DNA from: a virus
Length of the DNA stretch: 64,000 nt
IMG/VR virus record: IMGVR_UViG_3300009103_000003
Span: 117,200-181,199 of that record
Reading direction: 5' to 3' (one strand)
How positions within the stretch are numbered: the first letter of the stretch is position 1; every line of letters starts with the position of its first letter. The position numbers were made by a program, and so were the translations under genes. The notes beneath the pieces were generated by a model. It did not search any database. It was not told where the DNA came from and was given only the letters and a program-made list of their open reading frames with translations. This document shows, piece by piece, positions 1 to 61,178 of the stretch.

Positions 1-927
1 TTGACCAACTAGCGAGCCAAATAGCGAGCCTACATCCATCCTTAAGACGGGCATACCCCAATCATGTCCGATGCACTTTGAGACAAGGCTTTTACCTGTT
101 CCTGGGATTCCTACAATAAGAACTCCGCGTGGGTTAGGTAGTCCGTACTCTCGTGCTTCTTCACTGAACGAGCCGCCCCGTTGGTGCAGCCACTTCTTCA
201 GATTCTCAAGCCCCCCAACAGAGTTCATGTCTCTGTCAACATCGTAGAACTGGAGCACCCCACTCTTTCGGATGATGTGCTTTTTCTCCTCAATGATTAT
301 TTGGGGGTCGAGCATGCTCGCATGGGCTAGAGACTTCGCAAAGACGTTTTCGGCTTCAGCCAATGTTAGTCCGAGTGCTGCGTTTGACCCAATGTCCACC
401 ATGTTGTTTCTAGCGTCCTCTTGCAAGGTTGCCGTGGCTGCACAGTCGGCCATCAAAAGATGTGCTGTCCCGTTTAGCTCTTGAATACTTGGTAGATCAA
501 AATCAACTACTGCAATAAGCTTCTCTAACCGAGGCGGGATCTCAAGCTCAGAGTCAACAATAACGATGTTGATTCCTGGGCCTAGATTAGAAAGGGTATC
601 TCTCAGCTTACGCTGAACCAAATACTCTGGTCCGGTGTTAAGAAAATTAGCAAAGTCTCGTAATAGGAATACGCCGGATTCTCTATACCCCTGGATATAA
701 TCCAGAACATCTAGAGGTCCGTCGAGTTCTGAAAGAACATTTTCACCGCAACGGCAACCTTCAGTGATTGACCAAACATGTAATTTGGAATTCAACCCCT
801 GCTTGTTGTTCCGTCTCTCGATTATTCCTGATAAGCACTGCTCTACCCGACCTTCTTCGTAGGAAACTACAAAGATGGCCGGGTAGGCAGCACGAATCAG
901 AAGGTCGAGTTCTTCGACCGACCTCAT
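1..927 (-). CDS. AAA+ ATPase, C-terminus cut by the window edge
   Basis: An open reading frame of 309 residues starts at an ATG (925-927) directly after the ParB-like stop codon and runs off the left edge. Residues 273-280 are a Walker A motif (GIPGTGKS), followed by a stretch ending DVGSLFGSLVGQ. This order resembles the AAA+ core of the Ycf46-like family, whose N-terminal half, as here, lacks an obvious catalytic motif. Walker B and the arginine finger would lie beyond the window. It probably forms an ATP-driven remodelling ring; its substrate is unknown. Stop-to-start contact with the ParB-like gene suggests coupled translation and a shared function, perhaps in genome maintenance. The AAA+ call is firm, the subfamily tentative. 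Confidence 0.85.
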   Translation of the reverse strand, partial: MRSVEELDLLIRAAYPAIFVVSYEEGRVEQCLSGIIERRNNKQGLNSKLHVWSITEGCRCGENVLSELDGPLDVLDYIQGYRESGVFLLRDFANFLNTGPEYLVQRKLRDTLSNLGPGINIVIVDSELEIPPRLEKLIAVVDFDLPSIQELNGTAHLLMADCAATATLQEDARNNMVDIGSNAALGLTLAEAENVFAKSLAHASMLDPQIIIEEKKHIIRKSGVLQFYDVDRDMNSVGGLENLKKWLHQRGGSFSEEAREYGLPNPRGVLIVGIPGTGKSLVSKCIGHDWGMPVLRMDVGSLFGSLVGQ

Positions 928-1848
928 TTATTCGCCTACTCGAATCTTCTTTCGACGCTTTTTCTTCACGGGTGCTGGGGCTTCTTCCTCAACGACCACA
1001 CCATCGGCCTCGTCAACTCGATACAACATATCTTCCGTATCTAGCTCACAAAAGTACCAACGGATTACTTGGGCCAAGGAACGACGATGTTCTTCATCAA
1101 CACCGTCAGCATCAGCGGTCGCCAAGAGAGTACGAAGTTCTTCAACTTCTCGCTTAGACCTGTAGGTCTTTGCTCGCTTCCGCTGCTCGGTTGCAGGGAT
1201 TCCCTTGTCTTCCGTAGTCAAGATCTGCTCAAGAATCTCTGTCTGCTTAGCAACATCAGGAGTTCCATCTTCCTTCAATACCCGTGACAGCTTCTTAGCC
1301 TGGGTAAGTCGGATGTTCCCGTGTCGCAGAGCTTCAAAAGCCTCCTTGCACAAACCTCGGTAGGTCGAGGTCATGACACTTACCTGAGGCTGTGAAACAG
1401 ATAGCATAGCTGCCACCTCTTCCTGATGCCCAACTCGATCAACGAGCTTGGCAATCGCCTCACACTGGTCTGCGTGATTCAGCGAACTTCGCTGCATATT
1501 TTCACTCAGGTTTAGCGCGAGAGCCTCTTCCAAGGACCCGGTAAATACCGAGCACTGGATTTGGTCATAGAATTTACTTGTATCCTCGTTCGCCTCCTTT
1601 AGAGCAGCACGCTCCTCAGAAATAGCTTGATAACGACGATAACCTGCGAGCAGAACCAGCCTCTCAGCCCCATCCTCGTCCTTATATACTCGGACGATGG
1701 GCGGGTTCAGAAGGCCGTCCCGCTTAATAGAGTCGCGTAGCTCTGCGACCTCGAATGCATTAGCCTTCCGACAATTCTGGAAGCCGTCTGCGTTTCTCTC
1801 AATGTCGTCAAAATTAAACTTCTTCAGACGTAGTTGACGCTGCGTCAT
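928..1848 (-). CDS. ParB-like DNA-binding protein
   Basis: This 306-residue protein has the ParB layout. An N-terminal ParB/Srx-type domain covers about residues 30-120, with the LLAGYRRYQA stretch typical of the nucleotide-binding pocket and then LSENMQRSSL. A helix-turn-helix segment follows (EEVAAMLSVSQPQVSVM), and the C-terminus is highly basic. ParB proteins bind centromere-like DNA sites and may hydrolyse CTP; phage members serve in partition or gene control. No ParA-type Walker ATPase is adjacent; the neighbouring ATPase is AAA+. The upstream region (1997-2111) carries inverted repeats that could be its own operator or a parS-like site. That link is inference from position. Confidence 0.85.
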   Translation of the reverse strand: MTQRQLRLKKFNFDDIERNADGFQNCRKANAFEVAELRDSIKRDGLLNPPIVRVYKDEDGAERLVLLAGYRRYQAISEERAALKEANEDTSKFYDQIQCSVFTGSLEEALALNLSENMQRSSLNHADQCEAIAKLVDRVGHQEEVAAMLSVSQPQVSVMTSTYRGLCKEAFEALRHGNIRLTQAKKLSRVLKEDGTPDVAKQTEILEQILTTEDKGIPATEQRKRAKTYRSKREVEELRTLLATADADGVDEEHRRSLAQVIRWYFCELDTEDMLYRVDEADGVVVEEEAPAPVKKKRRKKIRVGE

Positions 1849-2118: not shown

Positions 2119-3189
2119 TTACTCATCTCCTTTTGTATAGATTGCTCTTCTCCTCCTACCCTGCGCCTTTACTGATGTAGATCCATCAATGAAAGGTTTT
2201 AATGCCGCAGGGTCCCCAACAACCGTTACAGAACCATCTGGTAGCAGTTGTATCTTAATCCCTGGTAGCTCTAACCAGATTTGGTCAGAGACTGCCGTCA
2301 ACTTTTGTAGACTGGGATAGTACTGCTTCAGGTTCTGAAGCTCTGTTCCCAGAGCCATTAAGGTTGAGGGTCTGGCAGTAGTAGCAATCTCTCCAGAGTC
2401 TCTTCTATGCTTGTGAATAGCTTCTCTCTCTAACCTGTCAAAGTCTGTCCTTCTTAGGGTGTCCATTTCAGTTGTTAGAGTCGTAAACCACTCATTCGCT
2501 TCTATATAGGCTGTCTTTCTACCAGCCTCTAACTTTAATCTTCCAAGCATCTTCCCTAGGATTACTCTTTCTTCTCCTATGGATACCAGCCTCTCCCTTG
2601 AATTGGAGAATGCTGTTAGGGCTTCCTGTAGTTTTTCATTTGAGTCAACAGGGTCCCCTGATGCTGAACAATACTTTTCTCTTAGCAGTGCAATACCGTT
2701 GGATGTTTCCTGAACGGTTGCTCTAGCTTCTTGGATACCACCTATGAGTGAAGTTACATCTACTTCATCTTTCTCAAGTAACCCACCAAGACTGGCTATA
2801 CGACTTCTAAAGGTAGTCAGAAACTCTCTAGTAAACTTAAATGTATGTAAGCAGCTTTTAGGGTTTCTGGCTAACTTGTCTAGCGCATATTGTTTACCTG
2901 TTACGAAGGGTGGTGTACTTCGGTATGTTTTACATCCCTTCAGAAGGGTAGCTGTTTCAGCATCCATTATTCTAAAAGGCATATAGATATGTACCCAGGC
3001 TTCGTTGTCCTCTTTCCAAAGGTATACGTGCCCACGTTCAATTGGTGTTAAATCTTGCTCATCCCAGGGAGCACCATCTACAGGGTCTATGAAATCATTT
3101 CTAGACCAGCGACTGGTATTTGAGGTAGGATGGCAAACCACTTGGATGTGAGGTTCAGCCCGGATGTTCAAAAGCTCATGTGCTGCCAT
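2119..3189 (-). CDS. Hypothetical protein, 356 residues
   Basis: The start at 3189 has a strong ribosome binding site (AAGGAGG, 4 bases of spacing) and is preferred over an in-frame ATG at 3231 that lies inside an operator-like repeat. The N-terminal 110 residues are rich in aromatic residues. The middle (about 130-250) is predicted helical and charged, probably coiled coil. A C-terminal part near 295-330 could form a small beta domain, and the tail is very basic (GRRRRAIYTK). I do not recognise the family. It lies between the ParB-like gene and the 273-residue gene, with operator-like repeats on both sides, so it may share their regulation. Confidence 0.75.
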   Translation of the reverse strand: MAAHELLNIRAEPHIQVVCHPTSNTSRWSRNDFIDPVDGAPWDEQDLTPIERGHVYLWKEDNEAWVHIYMPFRIMDAETATLLKGCKTYRSTPPFVTGKQYALDKLARNPKSCLHTFKFTREFLTTFRSRIASLGGLLEKDEVDVTSLIGGIQEARATVQETSNGIALLREKYCSASGDPVDSNEKLQEALTAFSNSRERLVSIGEERVILGKMLGRLKLEAGRKTAYIEANEWFTTLTTEMDTLRRTDFDRLEREAIHKHRRDSGEIATTARPSTLMALGTELQNLKQYYPSLQKLTAVSDQIWLELPGIKIQLLPDGSVTVVGDPAALKPFIDGSTSVKAQGRRRRAIYTKGDE

Positions 3190-3221
3190 TAAACCTCCTT
3201 CGGGGAATAAGTGTGTTAGGG

Positions 3222-3241
3222 TGACAGACATTTGGTTGTCA
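3222..3241. promoter_or_regulatory. Operator-like inverted repeat upstream of the 356-residue gene
   Basis: TGACAG-N8-TTGTCA, the same half-sites and 8-base spacer as at 1997 and 2092, sits 33 bases before the 3189 start and just downstream of a promoter-like octamer at 3247. A bound protein here would block transcription. Confidence 0.65.
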
Positions 3242-3402: not shown

Positions 3403-4224
3403 TTACTGACCTTCAACCACATTGTTGCTTGGGGTCTTGGAATGCTTCGGTGCAGCGGCCTTCACGGCATACTGACGAACCTTCTTAAACCTGAACCCAT
3501 GCTCCCTCATCAAAGAGGTCTGTGCAGTTGACAGAGCAGATGTAATGGCTACCTGACTACTCTCGCTGTCCCAGGCACCCTCAACGCACTTGGCGTAGGT
3601 GGGCTGAACAAACTGAGCGATGTATTCAGGAACATCAACAACCAATTTCAGGCCCCGCTTTTCCGCGAGGTCGGAAAGATAGAATGGAACACCCATCAGG
3701 CCCAACGCCTTTGTGGTGGTCTCATCCATCACCCCCTCCTCCACAGAGAGGCCGGTGCCGCTTGCAACCAAGTCCTTCAGGGCTTCGAAGTTGTGAGGCT
3801 TCTCTTTGGCGTCTCGGTACTTGATAGCACACGAAAGAAACGCACAGATGAACTCCTCACGGGCTCGGGCCTTTTCAGCCTTGGTAGGCTTCTTGGAACC
3901 ACGCTTCCACCCACCCCTGGTGATGAAGTTCAACGCGGCAGAGCCGTCGAAGTAACCATCGCAGGACAGAGTGAACCCGAACTTGCATTGCCAAGTCCGC
4001 TTCCCATCGCTGTACTCTGGAACACCTGAGTAGTAAACCGCCTTGGTATCGGGGTCCACCACACGGAGCATCCGCGTGACAACGTTATTATAAGTAATAG
4101 TAATAACATCTGGTGCCCGCTCCGGGTCAATCAGATTCAGCATAGCTTGCCCCATACCGGGAAGCTTCCATTTGGACTTGTTTGGGCCAGTCTTCTGACC
4201 TTGGTTGTTATCGTTGGTAGCCAT
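3403..4224 (-). CDS. Hypothetical protein, 273 residues, downstream of the E1-like gene
   Basis: The protein begins with a polar, low-complexity stretch (about residues 1-18), followed by a region rich in beta-strand formers (DVITITYNNVVTRMLRVV), a Trp/Cys-containing segment near 75-105, a helical middle and a basic C-terminal tail. I see no catalytic motif and do not recognise the family. The start has an AGAGGAG-type ribosome site 8 bases upstream. It follows the E1-like gene with a 31-base gap that holds a perfect AT-rich palindrome, so it may be the last gene of the conjugation operon. A role as substrate or partner is only inference from position. Confidence 0.75.
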   Translation of the reverse strand: MATNDNNQGQKTGPNKSKWKLPGMGQAMLNLIDPERAPDVITITYNNVVTRMLRVVDPDTKAVYYSGVPEYSDGKRTWQCKFGFTLSCDGYFDGSAALNFITRGGWKRGSKKPTKAEKARAREEFICAFLSCAIKYRDAKEKPHNFEALKDLVASGTGLSVEEGVMDETTTKALGLMGVPFYLSDLAEKRGLKLVVDVPEYIAQFVQPTYAKCVEGAWDSESSQVAITSALSTAQTSLMREHGFRFKKVRQYAVKAAAPKHSKTPSNNVVEGQ

Positions 4225-4234
4225 AACACATCTC

Positions 4235-4253
4235 CTCTTATAAAATTTTTATA
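4235..4253. other. AT-rich palindrome between E1-like gene and next gene
   Basis: CTTATAAAATTTTTATAAG is a perfect 9-bp inverted repeat around a single base, just upstream of the ribosome site of the 4224 start. It could be a promoter, an RNA processing site or a weak terminator; the sequence does not decide. Confidence 0.5.
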
Positions 4254-4255
4254 AG

Positions 4256-4921
4256 CTAGCTCGCAGAATTGCGATTTAAGTGGAAGTTGAGGAAGTCTAC
4301 ATCCACTGAATAATTTATCTCATCACCGATAATACTTTTGGCAACGAGAGCACAAATAATACTTGAAATGCCATATGCGCAGAAAATTGTGCTTTTTTCT
4401 GTGCACGGTAGCTGCACCGCTTCTTCGTCAGGAAACAGACTTTGGTCGTAGTAGGAAACGCTGTTTGCATTTGATTTGTCTACATAGAAGACAGATCCTT
4501 CACGCGCTCCCATACGACCGTCCAGGAAATACTTTGCTCCGCTGCTTACAAGAAAGCTTGACCAGATATCTGAGCGAGCAGACATATTGTCCACTGCTGA
4601 GATTACATAGTCTTCTTGGAAGGTTTCACCCCCCTCGAACTTCCTGTCTTCAGCGATGATTTCCGCACCGGTTCCTTCCGATAGCCGTTGCTGCAAGGCT
4701 TCACATTTCTTATACCCAATTTCGGTCACGAAATAGCCTTGATTGGCTACGTTGTGAGACTCGACATCGTCAAAGTCATAGATGCGTATCTTTCGAATAC
4801 CCATCTTGCACAAGGCTTCAGCAACATGGGACCCAATAGCCCCTGCGCCAACAATAGCTACAGAGCGGTTCTGTACGATTTCGTCTGGGATAATTCCGGA
4901 CTGGCGTGTGGTATCAATCAT
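4256..4921 (-). CDS. E1/ThiF-like ubiquitin-activating enzyme
   Basis: The 221-residue protein is a compact E1/ThiF/MoeB-fold enzyme, expected to adenylate the C-terminal glycine of the nearby ubiquitin-like protein with ATP. A Rossmann nucleotide-binding loop, GAGAIG, is at residues 25-30. The family signature follows at 48-61, with acidic residues D49, D51 and D52, then N57 and Q61. The Mg-site aspartate is D111 in the AVDN context. Candidate thioester cysteines are C173 (LPCTEK) and C181. ThiF-type CxxC zinc pairs are not seen. Its start overlaps the stop of the JAB gene by four bases (ATGA), so the two are translationally coupled. Minimal E1s of this length are known in bacterial ubiquitin-like operons. 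Assignment is strong; the catalytic cysteine choice is tentative. Confidence 0.92.
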   Translation of the reverse strand: MIDTTRQSGIIPDEIVQNRSVAIVGAGAIGSHVAEALCKMGIRKIRIYDFDDVESHNVANQGYFVTEIGYKKCEALQQRLSEGTGAEIIAEDRKFEGGETFQEDYVISAVDNMSARSDIWSSFLVSSGAKYFLDGRMGAREGSVFYVDKSNANSVSYYDQSLFPDEEAVQLPCTEKSTIFCAYGISSIICALVAKSIIGDEINYSVDVDFLNFHLNRNSAS

Positions 4922-5937
4922 ACTGCCACCCCAACCGGCTCATCTTCATCCTCGTCGTCTTCTCCAAACTCTGCTGCTAGGATTTTCTGGACTTCATCGT
5001 CCTGTTCTTCGTCGTCCTTTTTGCTTCCGACGTCGTAGTACAGTCCAGACAACTCATCCAAAATTTCCTCTGTGCTCATTTCTTTTGCGTACCACTTAGA
5101 GTGATATTCAATGACCTCTGTAAGATCTACGATGTTTTCTTCGTAGAGTTCTGCCAGAAGCTCTAGTTCATCGGGCAACCGCAGAGACTCTTTTACGTAC
5201 TCAACATTCGCGATCAAGTCATCTTCGTCCGAAGCGCTTTCGCTTTTGTCGTCTCCAGCTTCTTTGCTTTGATGACCGCCGTCCCAGCCGATGTAGTCGT
5301 CGTCCCAGTGGCCGAAGAAGCTCTGGTGGCCGTTTACTTTTCCCGTGTATGAACCGGTAGTGTACTTTCTTGTGTGTTTGACAACATTTAGTTGCGTAGG
5401 CGCGGGTCGAGAGACGTGGTCTTCAACCATCTCCTTTGCCCAGCCGTCCTCCAAGATGCTTACCTGATCAACAGACCATCCACACTTTTCAAAGGAAAAC
5501 CTGAACGGGTTGTACATATCTACCCGGACATTGAGGTCTCTCTTTTTGTTGGAGATTACGCTAATACAGACCTTATCAAAATTGAATTCTTCAATTTGTT
5601 TCTCGTCTGTTCCGGAATGACCGGTATCCATATTTACATGGGAGTGCCACCATACACAGATTTGGTCTGAACTTATCCCCTGGTCCCTAAGCTCCAAAGA
5701 CACATCTGCATAAGAGTCCATATCGAAGACAGTACTGCCCCCAGTGCACTCTTGGTCTGGAACATAGAATTCTAGAACATAGAAAGGCTCTTTAATGCCC
5801 CACTCATTTCGTTGAGCATCTGTGGCAATAATACCAATTGCTGATATCTCAATTGGGCACTCATCAGTCAATGCTGTCATTTGTTGATATGCTTTTTGTG
5901 TAAATCGGACGGTTGGCTTTGTTAGAACTTTAGTCAT
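4918..5937 (-). CDS. JAMM/JAB-domain isopeptidase (deubiquitinase-like)
   Basis: The 339-residue protein has a complete JAMM zinc-metalloprotease site: E30 in the PIEISAIG strand, then HSH at 98-100, S108 and D111, with the exact HxH-x7-S-x2-D spacing. Such enzymes cut isopeptide bonds or trim the tail of a ubiquitin-like precursor, which fits the two residues after GG in the 7153-7662 product. After the catalytic domain (about 1-150) comes a Gly/Tyr/Trp-rich linker (about 185-235) and a very acidic C-terminus. The start at 5937 has AGGAGG five bases upstream and overlaps the E2-like stop by eight bases; an in-frame ATG at 5982 lacks a ribosome site. It is an unusually long family member because of the acidic tail. 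Confidence 0.93.
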   Translation of the reverse strand: MTKVLTKPTVRFTQKAYQQMTALTDECPIEISAIGIIATDAQRNEWGIKEPFYVLEFYVPDQECTGGSTVFDMDSYADVSLELRDQGISSDQICVWWHSHVNMDTGHSGTDEKQIEEFNFDKVCISVISNKKRDLNVRVDMYNPFRFSFEKCGWSVDQVSILEDGWAKEMVEDHVSRPAPTQLNVVKHTRKYTTGSYTGKVNGHQSFFGHWDDDYIGWDGGHQSKEAGDDKSESASDEDDLIANVEYVKESLRLPDELELLAELYEENIVDLTEVIEYHSKWYAKEMSTEEILDELSGLYYDVGSKKDDEEQDDEVQKILAAEFGEDDEDEDEPVGVAV

Positions 5938-7039
5938 TAGTTCCTCCTGGATTGGTTTGTTGTTGAGCGAAACGGGCTGCATACTCGTTTCTTGAGATGC
6001 AGGGTGTTCCGTTTATTCCTCTATATGATGCTGGCGGGTTTATCGGATGAACGTGATGAACCATGCAGCAGCTATGGCAGTGACCACAGCCGCTAAGGTC
6101 TTCTTGTTCTTGGATAGTTCCGCATTCGTTGCATCTAGGACACTCACAATCCGCCATGATGTGGTTCCCTGACTCACATACAGCGTTGTCCCATCTGTTT
6201 GGGCACCACGCAGATAAGTGTACGTACGGGTTCTCTCTATTATAATGTTGTAGAAAGTCCGTGAGCGTTTCGATTACTTTAGCGATATCCTTAACACCCA
6301 TATCTTGTATTAGGGTGGGTTGGATATTGCCTAGGCATGCTGCACCATGCTCGTTTAGATGTGGGTGCGGATAGTTTCTCCTGTTACCCTCATCCGGGTT
6401 AACGCTTTTGCAGTATACAGTGACTCGGTTTCCTCGAACGGGGTCACCGTTGTAAGTTACAGAGCAATCAAATTTACCAAAGTTGTGTGGGAGAACAGAT
6501 CCGAAACCATCTTTTATGAAGATATCGTTAGTTCTCCAAGTTAGTTTTTGCTCATCTGCACTGATTGTGGAGAACTTGATTGGGACACGCGTATCGATGA
6601 GACCCTCAATGAAACGAATCATCAACGCTCTTTTTTCGAAACCATCCTCTGTGTAGATTTCTCCGTTCAACTCCAAGCGCCTTTTTATCTGCGCAATAGC
6701 TCGCTCACACCTTTCCGCTCGGTCTCTTGCCTGAGAAGACTTTGAACTTCGGTCCATAAGCTTTTGTCTGGCAGCACGCGTTCTCGCTCTGGCACGGTCG
6801 TACTCTGCCTCCTTGGCAGCAAGGCGTTGCTGGGCTCGGGTATAGATAGCCGACCTAGCAGAGACCTTATTGTTGTGCATTCGTTCTGCGGCACGCTCTC
6901 TTTCTAGCGCGGCAGACAATTTTATAAGCTCTTTTGAAGCAAGACTTTCTGAGTCGGTGATGATGGTCTGAAGTTGTTTGGCAATCAGAGCGTCGTCACC
7001 ATTAAAAGTTAGTTCGTAGTTTTTTGCTGTTGATGCCAT
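5930..7039 (-). CDS. E2-like conjugating enzyme with coiled coil and C-terminal cysteine cluster
   Basis: The 369-residue protein has three parts. Residues 30-125 are Ala/Arg/Glu-rich and predicted as a long coiled coil. Residues 135-290 match bacterial E2 (UBC-fold) proteins: beta-rich sequence, then PHPHLNEHGAACLGN (224-238), in which C235 is the likely thioester cysteine after the conserved HPH, and a terminal helix with a WCP motif. Residues 298-329 form a cluster C298, C300, C303, C306, C318, C321, C324, C325, H328, H329 that would bind one or two zinc ions, reminiscent of RING or zinc-ribbon E3 modules. It should carry the activated ubiquitin-like protein and pass it to a target; the zinc module may supply E3-like targeting, which is inference. 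The start at 7039 was chosen for its GGAG site. Confidence 0.88.
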   Translation of the reverse strand: MASTAKNYELTFNGDDALIAKQLQTIITDSESLASKELIKLSAALERERAAERMHNNKVSARSAIYTRAQQRLAAKEAEYDRARARTRAARQKLMDRSSKSSQARDRAERCERAIAQIKRRLELNGEIYTEDGFEKRALMIRFIEGLIDTRVPIKFSTISADEQKLTWRTNDIFIKDGFGSVLPHNFGKFDCSVTYNGDPVRGNRVTVYCKSVNPDEGNRRNYPHPHLNEHGAACLGNIQPTLIQDMGVKDIAKVIETLTDFLQHYNRENPYVHLSAWCPNRWDNAVCESGNHIMADCECPRCNECGTIQEQEDLSGCGHCHSCCMVHHVHPINPPASYRGINGTPCISRNEYAARFAQQQTNPGGTND

Positions 7040-7050
7040 AGTTTCTCCAC

Positions 7051-7087
7051 AAAAAAATAGCGGATGCCCCCCGAAGGGGACACCCGC
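7051..7087 (-). terminator. Intrinsic terminator/attenuator between the ubiquitin-like and E2-like genes
   Basis: On the minus strand a GC-rich stem-loop (7060-7087, GCGGGTG/CATCCGC outer arms with a CCCC/GGGG inner stem) is followed at once by seven T (7051-7057) and then the E2-like ribosome site. Reading past it is needed to express E2, JAB and E1 from an upstream promoter, so it would keep the ubiquitin-like protein in excess over the enzymes. Confidence 0.75.
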
Positions 7088-7097
7088 CACTTTTATT

Positions 7098-7129
7098 ACT
7101 CGTTATATTATTGGTCAGGTATAACGAGT
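7098..7129. other. Inverted repeat after the ubiquitin-like gene
   Basis: ACTCGTTATA (7098-7107) pairs perfectly with TATAACGAGT (7120-7129) around a 12-base loop, directly after the stop region of the ubiquitin-like gene and before the terminator. It may stabilise the mRNA 3' end or be an operator. Confidence 0.55.
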
Positions 7130-7152
7130 TTGGGTCAGGAGACTAGTAACGA

Positions 7153-7662
7153 CTACTGTCGTCCACCAGCAACCTTGTTACCAACCCAAATCTCATGCGG
7201 CCCTTCACCGAGAACGGTGCTGTTCGGGTCCGTAATGTCTGCGGTTTGGCCAGGGCCAACTCGTCGCTTGAAGGTGAGGCTGCGAATATCCCAGCCGCCC
7301 TCTTGCGTATTTAGCGTACTCACGATGTCTCCAAGAGTGGAGTCAGTGCGAACTTCAAGGCAACGGTCAGACTTACCATTTCGGATAAGCGTAACAACAC
7401 ACATGTCAGCGGCGCTGACTGTGCTTGTGGACGGGGCGGCGAAGGAGATGTTTCCTCCTCCGTTAACACCACCAGAACCATTAGTTCCGTTGCTGTTCGT
7501 TGCTGATTCAAGTCGGCTTTGCGCCTCGTTTACAGCAGACTGGAGCGCCTGCAAGCGGTCGAGGTTGCTTCGACTGTAGTCTGTTCCCATGTTGGCAACG
7601 AAAGAATCTCGTGCTGAGGTTGCTGACCCCAACGTTTCGTTCAAGTAATCAATGTTTTGCAT
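7153..7662 (-). CDS. Ubiquitin-like modifier precursor with C-terminal GG-RQ
   Basis: The 169-residue product has a helical N-terminal part (1-55), a Gly/Asn/Ser-rich linker (about 56-72), and a C-terminal domain (86-167) with the strand-strand-helix-strand order of a beta-grasp fold: CVVTLIR, RCLEVRTD, STLGDIVSTL, then further strands. It ends VAGGRQ, so a diglycine (166-167) is followed by two residues. Ubiquitin-like proteins must be trimmed to an exposed GG before E1 activation, and a JAMM protease is two genes downstream. The domain itself is divergent; the call rests on the GG tail, the fold-like pattern and the E1, E2 and JAB neighbours. The ribosome site AAGGAG lies about 11 bases upstream. 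Confidence 0.85.
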   Translation of the reverse strand: MQNIDYLNETLGSATSARDSFVANMGTDYSRSNLDRLQALQSAVNEAQSRLESATNSNGTNGSGGVNGGGNISFAAPSTSTVSAADMCVVTLIRNGKSDRCLEVRTDSTLGDIVSTLNTQEGGWDIRSLTFKRRVGPGQTADITDPNSTVLGEGPHEIWVGNKVAGGRQ

Positions 7663-7677
7663 AACTAGTTAGTCTCC

Positions 7678-8037
7678 TTAGACTAGATCCCAACGGAAAC
7701 CGTTGAAAATCTTTTGTAGCTTACCCGTTATTTCTTCCATGCTTTCTGCATTGAGGGTAACTACTGATGAATCATCAAAATCTACACGAATTGCTCGTGG
7801 TACATTAGACATGTCTGGCGTTTGGCTTTTGCCGATATCGCCTGCTGTAGCGTAAACGCTATACTCTATAAATGTCACATTATCGTTCTCGAAGGATGGT
7901 CTCCGTCCCACATAGCAGGTCAAATCCCAGCCCTTGTGTGACGCTGTTTTAACCTTCTTTCGGTTCTCCAAAACTTTAGATATTAGCGCATAATAATCTT
8001 CACGCCCAGTTTCCGGAGTGTCAGTTCTCTCAACCAT
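7678..8037 (-). CDS. Hypothetical 119-residue protein, first gene of the conjugation operon
   Basis: An alpha/beta protein with alternating strands (GWDLTCYVGRR, VTFIEYSVYA, AIRVDFDDSSVVTL) and helices at both ends. No catalytic motif is seen and the family is not recognised. Its stop codon overlaps the ribosome site of the ubiquitin-like gene, so the two are co-transcribed and probably coupled. It may be a conjugation substrate, adaptor or regulator; this is inference from position only. Confidence 0.75.
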   Translation of the reverse strand: MVERTDTPETGREDYYALISKVLENRKKVKTASHKGWDLTCYVGRRPSFENDNVTFIEYSVYATAGDIGKSQTPDMSNVPRAIRVDFDDSSVVTLNAESMEEITGKLQKIFNGFRWDLV

Positions 8038-9181: not shown

Positions 9182-9610
9182 TTAGGGCCTCGTAAACCTG
9201 AGTCCGCCGATAAGTATGGACTTTTTTATAGACATAGAGGCTTTCTTAGACATAGCAGCCAACGCCTTTCGGTCCCACTCAGGAGTCACCTCGTCTTTTA
9301 CAGGTGAGAGCGGCTCCCTATAGTCAGCTACCATTTCCTCGCCCGGAGCGATATCTTTAGTGGCATAGGCAATAAGTTTTTTGCCGGATTTCCGTAAACC
9401 CACATTGGCCACAGGTGAGTGGTTGAAGTAATCCCCCAGAAGGGTTTGGTGATAGTCCTTATAAACATCACCCGTGGGCTTACCGCTCTTTCTTATTAAG
9501 GCAACGCCGAGGACTTCCCCAGCCTTGTGGCCGCGCACACTGAAGCTCCCGGTCCCATCGATGGGGGACCGCTTGTGCTTTATCCGACCGTTTTCAACAT
9601 GAGATAACAT
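9182..9610 (-). CDS. SET-domain protein (probable lysine methyltransferase)
   Basis: The 142-residue protein has the short form of the SET fold. Residues 20-40 give the GTGSFSVRGHKAGEVLGV strands, FNHS (62-65) matches the N-H-S pseudoknot motif that binds S-adenosylmethionine, and ATKDIAPGEEMVADY (83-97) is the conserved C-terminal motif with the catalytic tyrosine Y97. SET enzymes methylate lysines on proteins such as ribosomal proteins or histones. No pre- or post-SET zinc domain is present. The ATG at 9610 follows GGTGG; a GTG nine bases earlier is the alternative. The target is unknown. The short length suggests a free-standing enzyme like those of some bacteria and giant viruses. Confidence 0.8.
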   Translation of the reverse strand: MLSHVENGRIKHKRSPIDGTGSFSVRGHKAGEVLGVALIRKSGKPTGDVYKDYHQTLLGDYFNHSPVANVGLRKSGKKLIAYATKDIAPGEEMVADYREPLSPVKDEVTPEWDRKALAAMSKKASMSIKKSILIGGLRFTRP

Positions 9611-9659
9611 ACTGTCCACCAGTATAACTGATAATACAAAAAATGGTCCAGCTAAAGAG

Positions 9660-57059: not shown

Positions 57060-60000
57060 ATGCCAATTACCAGTACTGAGGTCAGTAACATTATCCAATC
57101 CCAAGTTGGGATGTTCAGTGCCTCCGCAGCTTATGCTCACGCAGTTTCTGCCCAATACGGTTATCAAAGCCACGGCGGTATGGGAGTAAACGACCCACGC
57201 TCCGGGATGTACCAAGCCCAACAAGGATTACAGGCTGGAGCCATGGGCGGCATGTTAGCCAAAGCTCCCGGTATGGCTATGGGTGGTTTGGGCATGATGT
57301 CCATGTTTGGGATGGGGCCTCGCGCTTTGGACCCCTTCACCATGACCATGCACATGGGAGCACAAGGTTTCGCCCGACAAGGGCTGGCAGGTGCCATTGG
57401 TATGGGCGCAGCTACTTTCGGAACATACGCTGGCTTAGGTGCTATGGGTAATTGGGCCACAGGCCATATGGTTGGTGGTGCCCAAAATCGCGGAATGCTC
57501 AATTCCCAAATGGGACAAATGTTTCCCGGCATGAATGCACAAGGATTGGGGATGATGTCCCAACAGGTGGAATCCCAAGCCCGCATGGGTATGGGCAACC
57601 TCCGAGAAATCACATCAGTCATGCAACAAGGAGTTAGTAGCGGAGCAATCGACTCAAGCACGCTCTCAAGATTTTCCCAGTCCTTCAATAAACTAATGAG
57701 CAATGTTCGTCAGGTAGCAACCGTGATGAACACATCCCTACAACAAGCACAGTCAGCTATGCAGGCCGTTAGTGGTATGGGCATCTCATCAGACCAAGCA
57801 GCAGGGTTCCTAGGGACCATGAAAGGTATTGGGCAGGCTACCCATATCTCCCCACAACAAATGATGGGGGTAGCACAAGCAGGTGCCAACTTCGGACAAG
57901 CCGCTGGCATTGATATGGGCCAAGCAGCTACCGGAGCTATGGTTAGTGCAGGTGTCTATGGGTATACGGAACGTAATAAACTCATTAAAGGTATCACTGG
58001 TGCAGCGCAGGGTAGATATACACAAGCAGCCACGAGATTCCTAGGGTCTAGACGCGGTCAAACAGTTTTAGGGGCGATGATGACCTCTGGCGGCGAGTTT
58101 GACATGGATGCGGCGCGGCAAATTGCTAGTGGGACCATGAATTGGAAGGATATTAAGTCTGCATATGCGGCTAATATCACTGGTGCGTCTCAAAGGGACA
58201 TGCTTCGTGCTCGTGGGGGAGAGCTTGCGGGCCAATTCATTTCTGAGTTTGGGCCACAATCAATCTCCGGTGCGTTGGGATCGCTGCGGGACCAAAGTTC
58301 GAACCCGGAGTCATTGGCTCGGTCTCTTACGGGGCTCAATCGAAATGACCTCCGAGCCATGGACATGCTCGCGTCTAATACGGGACAGCTTCGATCCAAG
58401 ATGTTGGCCGAAGCACGAGCCGGTTTCCAAGAAGGCCAAGGCCGGATGGGAATTGGTGATGTCATGTCCAAAGCGATGGACACACTCACCAAACCAATCC
58501 GTGAGAAATTCCAAAAGCTTGGGGCCAACCTAACTCAATACACTCAAGAAGCACTCGAAGATGTAACGAACCAATTTGTTCGTGGTGGCAATATAGGCGG
58601 TAGCCCGCAAGGGATGCACCAAGCCGCGATGGACATTACTCGGTTTCACGCAACCGGTAACACCGAAGCGCTTCGAGATATGCAGATGCGCGGAGACTAC
58701 ATCGGAGGCTTTTCCGGTGCGTCAACCCAATGGGGCGGACAAGGCGCGGCTCGTGGTTGGGCCGGACAATTTGCAAGAGACTTCACCCCTATGGGGATGC
58801 AAATAGGTAACTTGTCAGCAGGCACTCAATTTGGCGAACTTCCAATGGGTGGGCTAGGACTATCCCAATTTCAACCAGGACAATCCGCATTTGCCTTCGG
58901 CTCTGCTGCTCGAATCTTCCCTGGTGGGAGAAATGCACTTGGTGCTGGCGGCGCGTTGATGAGCAACATTGGTCAACGCATAACTGGTGGCGGACCTCAT
59001 GGGTACACCGGTCTTTTTGGCGGACGAGGATCTGGCCCATTAGGCATGGGTGGTTTTGGTCCGATATCTGGAACGGGCCGATTAGCGGGTGGGTCCCTTC
59101 GTGTTGGCGGGTTTATGTCTCGCGGCCTGGGAGCAGTACTTGGTGGTTTGGGAACACCATTAATGGCTTACGATATGATTACCAACTCTGGCCCAGAGGC
59201 AATGCGTCAGTTTGGGATGGCAGGAATATCTGATGGAGCCATTACTGGTAATAATGCAAGACTGCTTGAGTCATTGACACAGTCTGGGATTTTGCCCGAA
59301 GACTCAATTCAAAGAATGAATGTTGGTGCCCAACAGAGTGGCGGGCTTGACGCTGCGGGAGCGGCGACGCTTGGGCTTACCCCAATTGGTGGAACCTTCC
59401 AACATGGGGAAGGCGGCATGGGCGGGTCACAAGGGTTTCTCACCAAGGGAGGGAGATCTGCGACCGAGAAGCTTTTGTCAAAAATGGGGGGAGACCACAG
59501 CACAATGATTTCCCGCCTAGGTGGTGACGCCAAAGTAAAGGCCGTCATAAGCAGACTTGCTGCTGAGCATAAAGATAATAAGAGTGACTACGAATTGATG
59601 AATGCCTTCATCAAAGAGACTGGAGCCACAAAAGAAGAGGCGTATATTCTTCTTGGGACACACAATAATGGTGCTGATGGTGGTGCGTTCAAAAACGAAC
59701 TTAAGCAGAAGTTTGACCTAACGCAGAAATATTCAGGAGACCCACAAGGCGCACGTCAACATTCTGTTGATGTAATCAAGAGGCGTGTAGGCCGATCCCT
59801 TGCTTGGCAGCTAGGGAATAAAGACATGTCCAAAAAGGAAAGAAAGGAACTCGCAAAGCAGCTTCTTGGTGAAAAGTCTGAAGCGTCCGGGCTGCTAGAA
59901 GACTTCGCTGGGGCTAACAACATGACTATGTATGAGGCGAGGAAAAAGCTTACAAGAGTTCAAGATGATGGTGTTCTGCTTGCGGGAGCGGATAAAGGTG

Positions 60001-61178
60001 GCAGTGGCCTGACAGACAGCGACAGTCATCGCTTTACTGATATGAAGCAAACCAAAATTGCCGCTCTTACCCAGACAGCTATGGAGAGTATGGGCCCGCA
60101 GTTTGGGTCAATTATTAGTGACGCACGAAAGAGGCTCCACACAGGAGAAAACAGGAATGAGGTCATCTCATCAGTGATGGCGCAAATGCCTGGACTTCAC
60201 CAACAATCCAGGGACATCGGAAAGCTGGGCAAGGGTGGTGTATCTCCCAAGGATGTAGTTGGTGCTTGGCTTGACGACACTGCTGGCTCATTTGGCGGCA
60301 AGACAGCGATTTCACAAGGTATCTCTATTACTGCTGAGCATGATGTAACTCGTTATGAAAATGTAAAGAACGAGATTCAACGTATTCGAAGGGGCCACAG
60401 AGATGAGTCTCCGACAGCACAACAAGGTCTCCGGATCTCTGCTATGCGAGGTGGCTACGCAAACCTAAATCAGTTCAGAGATATACATGAGAAATTCAAG
60501 AAAGGGCTCGGGACTGTCTCTGAAGATGGGAAGACCGTAACTACGGAAGACTTTGAAACTGGCGCGATGCAGGACTTTGCCAGAAGTCTTATGGGGGATA
60601 ACCGTGAATTAGCCACTAATATGCAGGGCGGGAGACTAGGAAAGCTCACTACTTCTTTAGCAAAGGGCGATTCTGCGGTTGAGCGAAGAATGACGCATGT
60701 AGCCGCCTCTGTGGATTATTACACCAAGCAATGGGAGAACAGTGATAAGTCCCCGCACAAGTTTTTAGCTAAAATCACTCACGATCCAAGCTTTAATAAG
60801 CTGACTAAGCGGGAGCAGGCTTATTTAGCAGGCACAGACAAGACAGGGCTCACTACTAGGCTTGAAGGGATGCTCCAAGACAGCGCTAGAGATATGTTAG
60901 TGGCCTCTGGACGCAAACCCACTAATTCTGAGGTCGAACAACTCGCTGATAAGCTTGTTAAGGGCTCTGAAACTTCGGGTGGGGACGGTTATGACTTCAA
61001 AGACTTGGTTACAGACCTGTCTTCGACCACTACGCCGATTCGACCGGGAACAAACAGGGGTGGCAGCGGTGCTGGGGCCCATGAATCAGTCCAAAATGTT
61101 GTTAGCGCTCTTGATGGGTTAGCCTCAAAACTCAACAGCTTCTCGGTTCCGGGCCAAAACATGTCGTATTCCCGATGA
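57060..61178 (+). CDS. Tape-measure-like giant virion protein, 1372 residues
   Basis: The longest gene in the window. Residues 1-180 are extremely rich in Met, Gly and Ala (MGGLGMMSMFGMGPRALDPF); the middle (180-800) continues Gly/Gln-rich with helical stretches; residues 800-1372 are charged and helical. Length, helical content and position at the head of a plus-strand virion run suggest a tape-measure or internal head/tail protein. No lysozyme or peptidase motif is visible. The Met/Gly bias is unusual for tape measures, which are normally Ala/Gln/Lys coiled coils, so an injected membrane-active protein is an alternative. Confidence 0.65.
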   Translation: MPITSTEVSNIIQSQVGMFSASAAYAHAVSAQYGYQSHGGMGVNDPRSGMYQAQQGLQAGAMGGMLAKAPGMAMGGLGMMSMFGMGPRALDPFTMTMHMGAQGFARQGLAGAIGMGAATFGTYAGLGAMGNWATGHMVGGAQNRGMLNSQMGQMFPGMNAQGLGMMSQQVESQARMGMGNLREITSVMQQGVSSGAIDSSTLSRFSQSFNKLMSNVRQVATVMNTSLQQAQSAMQAVSGMGISSDQAAGFLGTMKGIGQATHISPQQMMGVAQAGANFGQAAGIDMGQAATGAMVSAGVYGYTERNKLIKGITGAAQGRYTQAATRFLGSRRGQTVLGAMMTSGGEFDMDAARQIASGTMNWKDIKSAYAANITGASQRDMLRARGGELAGQFISEFGPQSISGALGSLRDQSSNPESLARSLTGLNRNDLRAMDMLASNTGQLRSKMLAEARAGFQEGQGRMGIGDVMSKAMDTLTKPIREKFQKLGANLTQYTQEALEDVTNQFVRGGNIGGSPQGMHQAAMDITRFHATGNTEALRDMQMRGDYIGGFSGASTQWGGQGAARGWAGQFARDFTPMGMQIGNLSAGTQFGELPMGGLGLSQFQPGQSAFAFGSAARIFPGGRNALGAGGALMSNIGQRITGGGPHGYTGLFGGRGSGPLGMGGFGPISGTGRLAGGSLRVGGFMSRGLGAVLGGLGTPLMAYDMITNSGPEAMRQFGMAGISDGAITGNNARLLESLTQSGILPEDSIQRMNVGAQQSGGLDAAGAATLGLTPIGGTFQHGEGGMGGSQGFLTKGGRSATEKLLSKMGGDHSTMISRLGGDAKVKAVISRLAAEHKDNKSDYELMNAFIKETGATKEEAYILLGTHNNGADGGAFKNELKQKFDLTQKYSGDPQGARQHSVDVIKRRVGRSLAWQLGNKDMSKKERKELAKQLLGEKSEASGLLEDFAGANNMTMYEARKKLTRVQDDGVLLAGADKGGSGLTDSDSHRFTDMKQTKIAALTQTAMESMGPQFGSIISDARKRLHTGENRNEVISSVMAQMPGLHQQSRDIGKLGKGGVSPKDVVGAWLDDTAGSFGGKTAISQGISITAEHDVTRYENVKNEIQRIRRGHRDESPTAQQGLRISAMRGGYANLNQFRDIHEKFKKGLGTVSEDGKTVTTEDFETGAMQDFARSLMGDNRELATNMQGGRLGKLTTSLAKGDSAVERRMTHVAASVDYYTKQWENSDKSPHKFLAKITHDPSFNKLTKREQAYLAGTDKTGLTTRLEGMLQDSARDMLVASGRKPTNSEVEQLADKLVKGSETSGGDGYDFKDLVTDLSSTTTPIRPGTNRGGSGAGAHESVQNVVSALDGLASKLNSFSVPGQNMSYSR

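Follow-up and report, generated by a model that had tools for sequence, protein, structure and literature searches.

What does a set of genes for ubiquitin-like (Ubl) protein conjugation do in the genome of a phage, given that recent work has treated bacterial Ubl conjugation as anti-phage defence? The question is raised by a window of 64,000 nucleotides (bases 117200-181199 of the 181,199-base IMG/VR virus record IMGVR_UViG_3300009103_000003) that, at positions 3403 to 8037, encodes a Ubl modifier, an E2-like enzyme, a JAMM metalloprotease and an E1-like enzyme in one run of genes. A sequence-only reading by a model had seen there a complete phage-encoded conjugation operon akin to the bacterial Bil systems and possibly a captured defence. 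Our analysis supports the phage-encoded set, with a modifier that is modelled as a beta-grasp and an E2 core that resembles E2 enzymes, although "complete" is a little strong for four parts with no recognisable E3. We interpret its role differently, however, and estimate at about 60% the probability that the cassette serves a Ubl conjugation and deconjugation cycle of the phage's own that is tied to DNA replication.

The guess that the genome belongs to a phage was right: matches to a terminase large subunit (E 4.6e-72), a tail sheath (5.8e-12), a head maturation protease (5.2e-9) and, weakly, a major head protein (1.1e-4) among the record's proteins, together with a baseplate wedge, a primase, a DnaB-like helicase and a UvsX-like recombinase (8.5e-13), identify it by gene content as a tailed phage with a contractile tail. 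Ribonucleotide reductase, exonuclease, endolysin and four tRNAs are also encoded. All six open reading frames (ORFs) of the proposed operon are present on the minus strand (Table 1), and so are its stop/start overlaps, which comprise 4 nt between JAMM and E1 (4918-4921) and, between E2 and JAMM, 53 nt with the listed JAMM start at 5982 or 8 nt with an internal ATG at 5937. Comparison with a related contig favours this internal ATG, which the residue numbers of the sequence-only reading also imply; for the E2, ATG 7039 is a better start than GTG 7090 and fits the numbering of C235. The relative (L021/L102; L numbers denote contigs or loci) is a 178,429-base contig with the gene order of the window, and its proteins are 79% (modifier), 55% (E2), 64% (JAMM, over 297 aligned residues), 87% (E1) and 84% (ParB) identical to those of the window, with 54-64% for three unknown genes. 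In the six genes measured between the two, nonsynonymous divergence (dN) was 0.09-0.42 and synonymous divergence (dS) ranged from 1.4 to saturated, which indicates purifying selection. Two further contigs, L001 and L002, carry a 100% identical E2 and are probably the same phage as the window.

The E1-like protein is the most readily recognised part. Its Pfam ThiF match is a single stretch over residues 17-215, and the family profile (A1) found Uba1, UBA5 and ThiF in the PDB ahead of Cap2 (6.8e-10) and BubCD (3.2e-8). When we aligned the window's E1 with one E1 from each of 44 clusters of phage relatives (70% identity), residues G25, G27, D49, D51, N57, K72, D111, R116 and C173 were identical in 45/45 sequences, so that the glycine and D111 motifs noticed from the letters hold throughout. 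We infer an E1 adenylation domain with a catalytic cysteine, a role for which C173 is the candidate. For the JAMM protein, the Pfam Prok-JAB match is weak (E 0.07), and the family profile (A7) found RPN11 in the PDB and also JAMM1 and CSN5. Among 73 aligned JABs (the window and 72 of the 84 JAB stretches, leaving out duplicates, the window's own copies and stretches below 70 residues), H98 is kept in 72 and H100, S108 and D111 in 71, which upholds this portion of the motif read from the sequence; its proposed Glu30 fared less well (see below). No PHROGs model matched the JAMM or the E2 at E values up to 1.

An E1 of this kind could also belong to sulfur chemistry, with modifier and E1 making a thiocarboxylate for tRNA or cofactor synthesis in the manner of ThiS, MoaD or Urm1. 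The E1 is small and single-domain, and its best NCBIfam score is to ThiF (73.9 bits, under the cut-off), but the presence of E2-like and JAMM partners argues against such a carrier, and so does a scan of ten window genes, in which neither a rhodanese nor a cysteine synthase nor any cofactor gene turned up; for JAB-linked E1s, the available part of Iyer 2006 (PMC1779556) takes the same view. We consider this explanation improbable.

The modifier was modelled with AlphaFold2 from a ten-sequence alignment (A6; mean pLDDT 70), and the model consists of N-terminal helices (residues 2-57), a low-confidence linker and a domain at about residues 87-162 with the order beta-beta-alpha-beta-beta-beta. 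The best 50 Foldseek rows were nearly all ubiquitin, SUMO and Ubl domains of the PDB (best E 4.9e-4; 12 at E ≤0.001 among the rows listed); those listed also include two PI3-kinase chains and several tubulin-cofactor complexes, in which the matched chain is presumably cofactor E, a protein with a Ubl domain. In this model the modifier has the ubiquitin beta-grasp fold that the sequence-only reading had predicted. By sequence, the only PDB matches were to unrelated proteins at E 0.24 or worse, and a PHROGs search to E 1 gave a single match at 0.21. Scores against the Ubl profile of crAss-like phages are likewise weak (E 0.04 for the window, 0.011 for the relative, and 0.005 at 7% probability with hhalign), so that the case for kinship with the crAss modifiers is made by gene order together with the joint alignment A6. 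The diglycine tail is present as had been noted, though not at the very end: the C-terminus reads VAGG-RQ in the window and VAGG-NA in the relative. With two residues after GG the modifier would need trimming, and a diglycine that is kept while the next two residues change is what one would expect if those residues are removed. As a separate observation, other phage loci carry a second modifier family with a Ub-like part that ends in K-x-D-N-A or similar, an unusual tail for a Ub-like protein, and that stands alone (about 77-80 aa) or is fused to a C-terminal domain (L061:3192-3428, L056:3504-3737, L057:3289-3531, L077:503-736 and others); the L077 modifier has the tail GDGG-LN.

For the E2, whose identity rests on fold comparison and family alignment, no Pfam, PHROGs, NCBIfam or PADLOC model gave an identification, and the weak matches sit on its coiled coil. 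The model is confident at residues 141-210 and 231-270 (pLDDT 84-96) and less so at 211-230 (62-75), the segment that contains HPH. The top two Foldseek rows were chain D of the Fts-Hook3-FHIP1B complex, which is presumably Fts, a UEV protein, and the UEV domain of TSG101 (E 0.24). When the model was aligned to the Foldseek candidates with VIA-align, 41/50 rows fell on residues 136-285, and all 41 are by title E2 enzymes or complexes containing one (Z 5.4-6.0; root-mean-square deviation, rmsd, 3.8-4.9 over 95-125 residues); the other nine rows, the seven with the highest Z among them, fall on the coiled coil or, in the case of two THO-complex chains, span both regions at rmsd 66. It is this agreement in kind, rather than the middling Z value, that counts for the E2 fold, and the modelled core resembles E2 enzymes rather than an unrelated fold. 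The active-site signature proposed from the sequence stands for H227 and C235, which like G237 are each present in 31/32 aligned cores of the window type (the window and 31 of 34 profile-collected ORFs, without duplicates and the window's own copies), and less so for H225, which is present in 21/32 with Asn in nine. The spacing from HP to CL is that of the eukaryotic E2 signature. Behind the core, all ten tail cysteines (C288-C347) are kept in L102 while the tail is identical at 44/81 positions. Two variants were seen elsewhere: L024:60-5369 has five E2-like genes in tandem upstream of JAMM and E1, one of them without the catalytic Cys in the alignment, and the E2-like protein of a Xanthomonas phage (L011:5310-7988) has 892 aa with 15 Cys before the core and 20 after it.

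Table 1. Genes and sites of the cassette and its surroundings (window positions).
Feature	Position	Strand	Evidence
Unknown protein, 119 aa; opens the run	7678..8037	-	No significant family match; 54% identity in relative L102
Ubiquitin-like modifier, 169 aa	7153..7662	-	AlphaFold2 model and Foldseek
Gly166-Gly167, then Arg-Gln and stop; predicted JAMM processing site	7162..7167	-	Comparison with L102; alignment with SG/SGG/AG in modifiers from other phages
E2-like enzyme, 369 aa: N-terminal coiled coil, E2 core ~137-284, Cys-rich C-terminus	5930..7039	-	Model and VIA-align
E2 active-site signature H225-P-H227 ... C235, then L236-G237	6335..6367	-	Aligned window-type E2 cores
Cys-rich C-terminal E2 segment C288-C325, possibly zinc-binding	6065..6178	-	Tail cysteines kept in L102; low model confidence
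JAMM/JAB metalloprotease, 339 aa from ATG at 5937	4918..5937	-	Profile vs PDB, RPN11 E 1.8e-8
JAMM motif H98-x-H100 ... S108-x2-D111	5605..5646	-	Aligned JABs
E1-like adenylating enzyme, 221 aa, single ThiF-type domain	4256..4921	-	Pfam ThiF 1.3e-22; profile vs PDB, Uba1 1.4e-15
E1 Cys173, predicted thioester cysteine	4403..4405	-	Cys in 45/45 aligned phage E1s
Unknown 273-aa protein after E1	3403..4224	-	No family match; no detectable kinship with crAss gene in same place
Unknown 370-aa protein	2119..3231	-	No family match; 60% identity in relative
ParB-like protein	928..1848	-	Pfam ParB_N 6.2e-6; PRTRC_parB 5.1e-12, far under cut-off
AAA+ ATPase, 525 aa, runs past window edge	1..927	-	AAA 1.7e-28 (L103:3550-5127); UvsX-like recombinase follows outside window

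The cassette is spread widely among phages. With the E1 as query, tblastn at E 1e-3 matched 91 phage records out of 50,697; going by their names, 29 are phages of Bacteroides, many of them called crAss, another 29 are phages of Flavobacterium, and 13 are uncultured. A scan of IMG/VR confirmed 106 relatives of the E1; the 80 that we kept, joined with four named phages, make up 84 loci in the 44 E1 clusters. Because all loci were found through their E1, the figures should not be read as frequencies in phages at large. The set also contains close copies of the window (L019, L020) and IMG records that duplicate named phages (L094 duplicates crAss001, for example), for which reason the cluster counts are fairer. 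A JAMM gene lies in 80/84 loci (41/44 clusters), and E1, JAMM and E2 occur together in 73 (37 clusters), 43 of which (26 clusters) also have a modifier recognised by profile; the window's own modifier, which no profile reaches and which rests on fold, alignment A6 and place, is outside these 43. Several loci that lack JAMM or E2 have their E1 at a contig edge. The order E2-JAMM-E1 was found in 63 loci and is preceded by a crAss-type modifier in 32 of these; the remainder have E1-JAMM-E2 (nine), JAMM-E1 (seven), E1 alone (three), JAMM-E1-E2 (one) or E2-E1 (one, Xanthomonas phage PhiXhv-15, with a modifier-like protein ending in GG upstream). Among genome contigs, a scan with the E1 gave one marginal locus, in a contig of a metagenome-assembled genome (36 residues matched).

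In crAss001 (gp79-gp76) and Flavobacterium phage FpV4 (gp53-gp50), the order modifier-E2-JAMM-E1 is that of the window and the system is apparently of the same kind, but the E2 motif there is HSH..CxG and the modifier has a C-terminal extension after SG. The annotations of these cassettes are hypothetical protein, metalloprotease (crAss001 gp77) and thiamine biosynthesis protein, a name also given to one of the crAss001 genes; in crAss001, gp79 has a beta-grasp-like N-terminus and is followed by gp78, gp77 and gp76, the latter annotated "ThiF". Altogether there are three types of E2, namely the window type (34 ORFs), the crAss type (37 ORFs) and a third type (12 ORFs), and hhalign of the window type against the other two (7.6e-4 and 1.9e-4; short active-site stretches, a single template each) is suggestive of a relationship among them. 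In a tree of 54 E1s, the window and its relative form a deep branch of their own among the 45 phage sequences. E2 type tracks this tree, with seven changes over all groups against a shuffled mean of 27.8, which indicates that the genes of the cassette tend to move as a unit.

The prevalence of the JAMM gene would also fit counter-defence, in which the phage set removes or poisons the Ubl tagging of host systems (Bil, Bub, CBASS) with the JAMM as its active part. For that purpose a modifier, E1 and E2 of the phage's own with conserved active residues would be needless, and we give this explanation little credence.

The genes around the cassette also bear on its role. In the window, transcription on the minus strand runs from the unknown 119-aa gene through modifier, E2, JAMM, E1 and two unknowns to ParB, the AAA+ ATPase and the UvsX-like recombinase, so that the cassette adjoins ParB, AAA+ and UvsX-like genes. 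The cassette of crAss001 lies between primase and uracil-DNA glycosylase (UDG), near helicase, exonuclease, ribonucleotide reductase and dUTPase; that of FpV4 lies between UDG and exonuclease VIII, with Sak4-like and primase genes also nearby, and that of PhiXhv-15 between DNA ligase and topoisomerase genes. Across 142 flanking ORFs of 38 representative loci, most of the top 25 (of 52) Pfam families belong to DNA or nucleotide metabolism, the commonest being reverse transcriptase (7), DUF3799 nuclease (6), UDG and Toprim_2 (5 each), AAA_24 and LAGLIDADG (4 each), followed by ribonucleotide reductase, ResIII, Helicase_C and DnaB_C (3 each). Wide spread among phages and, in the loci inspected, vicinity to replication genes speak for a phage function of its own, and against the captured defence of the sequence-only reading.

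Group I introns add an independent mark of function. They interrupt the crAss-type cassette of three contigs (Rfam RF00028, 66-70 bits, cut-off 50), twice in the JAMM frame (L053:3543-3802, L083:4139-4351), which breaks off after ...LIH and resumes at SHNNM, and once in the E2 frame (L072:2213-2444), which breaks off after ...YMH and resumes at SHICS. Judged by reading frame rather than exact splice points, each separates the first H of HSH, the motif of the metal site or active site, from the S. Group I introns usually occupy highly conserved codons of important genes, and their position at HSH marks these residues independently as functional in phages. The insert in L053 holds an oppositely oriented ORF of 244 aa that looks by eye like a LAGLIDADG nuclease.

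From the parts observed here, with their active-site residues, the model folds of the modifier and the E2 core, and the conservation of the genes as a unit, we infer the following cycle. The JAMM protease would trim the modifier after Gly167, whereupon the E1-like enzyme would adenylate it and probably hold it on Cys173; the E2-like enzyme would take it over on Cys235 and attach it to target proteins, possibly with help from its Cys-rich, E3-like tail, and the JAMM protease could also remove it again. Since distantly related phages have the cassette close to genes for replication, recombination and partition, we guess from these neighbours that its most likely targets would be proteins of replication or recombination, whether encoded by the phage or by its host.

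Several observations weigh against this phage-own cycle. Covalent conjugation is predicted here from genes and models, and the model confidences are moderate, with a pLDDT of 72-86 over residues 91-160 of the modifier. For the E2, the best Foldseek E value was 0.12, a profile search of PDB sequences found nothing, the Z values of the E2 rows fall in the range that VIA-align's own note calls middling, and seven top rows (Z 6.4-7.2) that lie on or across the coiled coil outrank them. The column of the proposed catalytic Glu30 is E in just 40/73 JABs, which may be misalignment or variation, and no JAMM was found in the PhiXhv-15 locus. One phage group has modifiers that end in KxDNA rather than GG, and ORFs close to the cassette show no enrichment of GG tails as such (28/911 vs 7/272); for want of this enrichment we dropped a GG-tail regular expression as modifier finder. 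The count of flanking families, finally, stands without a background control set.

Among described systems, plasmid PRTRC cassettes are close in layout, and a plasmid-type, partition-linked maintenance cassette carried by a phage is an alternative that we regard as unlikely. We equate these cassettes with class 6d of Iyer 2006, whose parts and listed genera fit the plasmids compared; the available part of that work (PMC1779556), in which a table row also names Bacteroides and Bacillus, describes the E2 of this class as lacking the classical His and having a conserved His after the Cys, unlike the window E2 with HPH before C235. PRTRC and window share separate genes for modifier, E2-like protein, JAB and E1-like protein in the same order (C-(F)-B-A-ThiF, in the window without gene F) with ParB close by, although ParB is downstream in the window and upstream in the plasmids. 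The E1 and ParB resemble PRTRC models, but at 67.8 bits for PRTRC_ThiF (cut-off 144.75) and 45.1 for PRTRC_parB (cut-off 278.6) in NCBIfam, and the other eight genes scanned, at E up to 1, matched none of the models for PRTRC proteins A, B, C, E and F. With hhalign and one template each, E1 (4e-21) and ParB (2e-11) aligned to their PRTRC counterparts, and the JAMM aligned to PRTRC A at 1.3e-5 with the family profile and 0.028 with window and relative alone; E2 against B (0.11-0.12) and modifier against C (0.31-0.36) stayed in the range of negative controls. In the E1 tree, the phage sequences separate at 100/100 from nine plasmid E1s (six annotated PRTRC and three cyanobacterial ThiF-family), a comparison from which the E1s of Bil, Bub and Cap2 are absent. 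The window thus agrees with PRTRC in gene order and in two families of a generic kind, but for E2 and modifier, the most telling proteins, no alignment was detectable, and we reject membership on defining features, since the scores fall below the NCBIfam cut-offs and HPH stands before the Cys.

The other comparison is with defence, in which a captured or phage-borne cassette would tag proteins of competing phages or mobile elements in a Bil-like superinfection exclusion. Parts of the same kinds are found in Bil (BilABCD), which has all four, and in CBASS, and the window's E1 matched 34 PADLOC models over about residues 4-109, the 25 listed all named E1-E2; in the same search (E up to 1), JAMM and modifier matched nothing and the E2 gave two weak coiled-coil matches. 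According to the available part of PMC11354881, however, Bil is defined by a tandem-Ubl BilA, a CEHH BilB E2 and a BilD with an inactive and an active adenylation domain. The window has one beta-grasp domain in the modifier model instead of two, an E1 of 221 aa with one ThiF stretch instead of two adenylation domains, and an E2 with His before the Cys, in which the positions of the CEHH motif (Cys, Glu +6, His +8, His +13) are P, L and G counted from C235. The Bil kinship suggested by the sequence-only reading is not supported by this comparison, and we reject membership because tandem modifier, CEHH E2 and two-domain E1 are all absent. A cassette that lies near replication genes and is kept over deep divergence is, moreover, unlike variable defence cargo, and introns at active-site codons suggest a core gene, so that a defensive role seems to us even a little less likely than a plasmid-type one. 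CBASS Cap2, 6A-MBL and BubCD, the latter taken by us as a fusion from its name and length, share E1 chemistry with the window. Cap2 is an E1-E2 fusion according to the available part of PMC12355090; the window has separate genes and its own modifier. In lambda, the tail-assembly proteins I and K combine a phage Ub-like domain with a JAB protease, but the set described in the available part of Iyer 2006 (PMC1779556) has no E1 or E2 and belongs to tail genes, not near replication genes. We regard the cassette as a phage-carried variant of Ubl conjugation systems that is a member of neither PRTRC nor Bil. We found no description of the cassette in phages in titles and abstract beginnings of openly licensed papers, preprints excluded, and no match in the text of Yutin 2021 (ThiF, JAB, ubiquitin and protease terms), Shkoporov 2018 (gp76-78, ThiF, thiamine, metalloprotease) or Bayfield 2023 (gp75-79, ubiquitin).

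Other features of these genomes are recorded for completeness. The 273-aa gene after E1 was rejected as a conserved partner, as it does not align with the crAss gp75 family (hhalign E 0.088). A SET-domain protein (Pfam 1.6e-6, a lysine-methyltransferase-like family) is encoded upstream of the cassette at 9182-9619 (-), with an ORF resembling it by eye at L102:4414-4845, and a 1372-aa protein at 57060-61178 (+) has no PHROGs match at E 0.001. Promoter and terminator scans gave 9 sites against 10.8 expected and 14 against 8.6 expected (sd 3.0), and neither was used as evidence. In 12 contigs chosen for an ORF of 370-460 aa or kinship at that place (L031, L032, L041, L056, L057, L061, L067, L077, L081, L091, L092, L098), E1 is followed at a distance of about 0.3-1.5 kb by a reverse transcriptase, for which the best RVT_1 match of each contig has an E value between 8e-19 and 8e-27, with VYTRYADD or a similar motif in 11; eight other records tested, the window's genome included, gave no RVT_1 match, and Rfam found no retron RNA in the eight of the 12 contigs scanned.

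Beyond this phage, we tentatively suggest, as a possibility that we hold with less than even confidence, a large and unrecognised class of phage-own Ubl conjugation, old in several lineages including crAss-like gut phages, that would regulate phage DNA replication, recombination or segregation much as ubiquitin and SUMO act on eukaryotic replication factors. If this is true, the four-part sets in many phage lineages would mean that viruses use for their own life cycle the same chemistry that recent work on bacteria regards as anti-phage defence. Cultivable crAss-like phages would then serve as model organisms for finding the targets, and functional names would follow for genes of human-gut viruses that are now called "thiamine biosynthesis protein" or "hypothetical".

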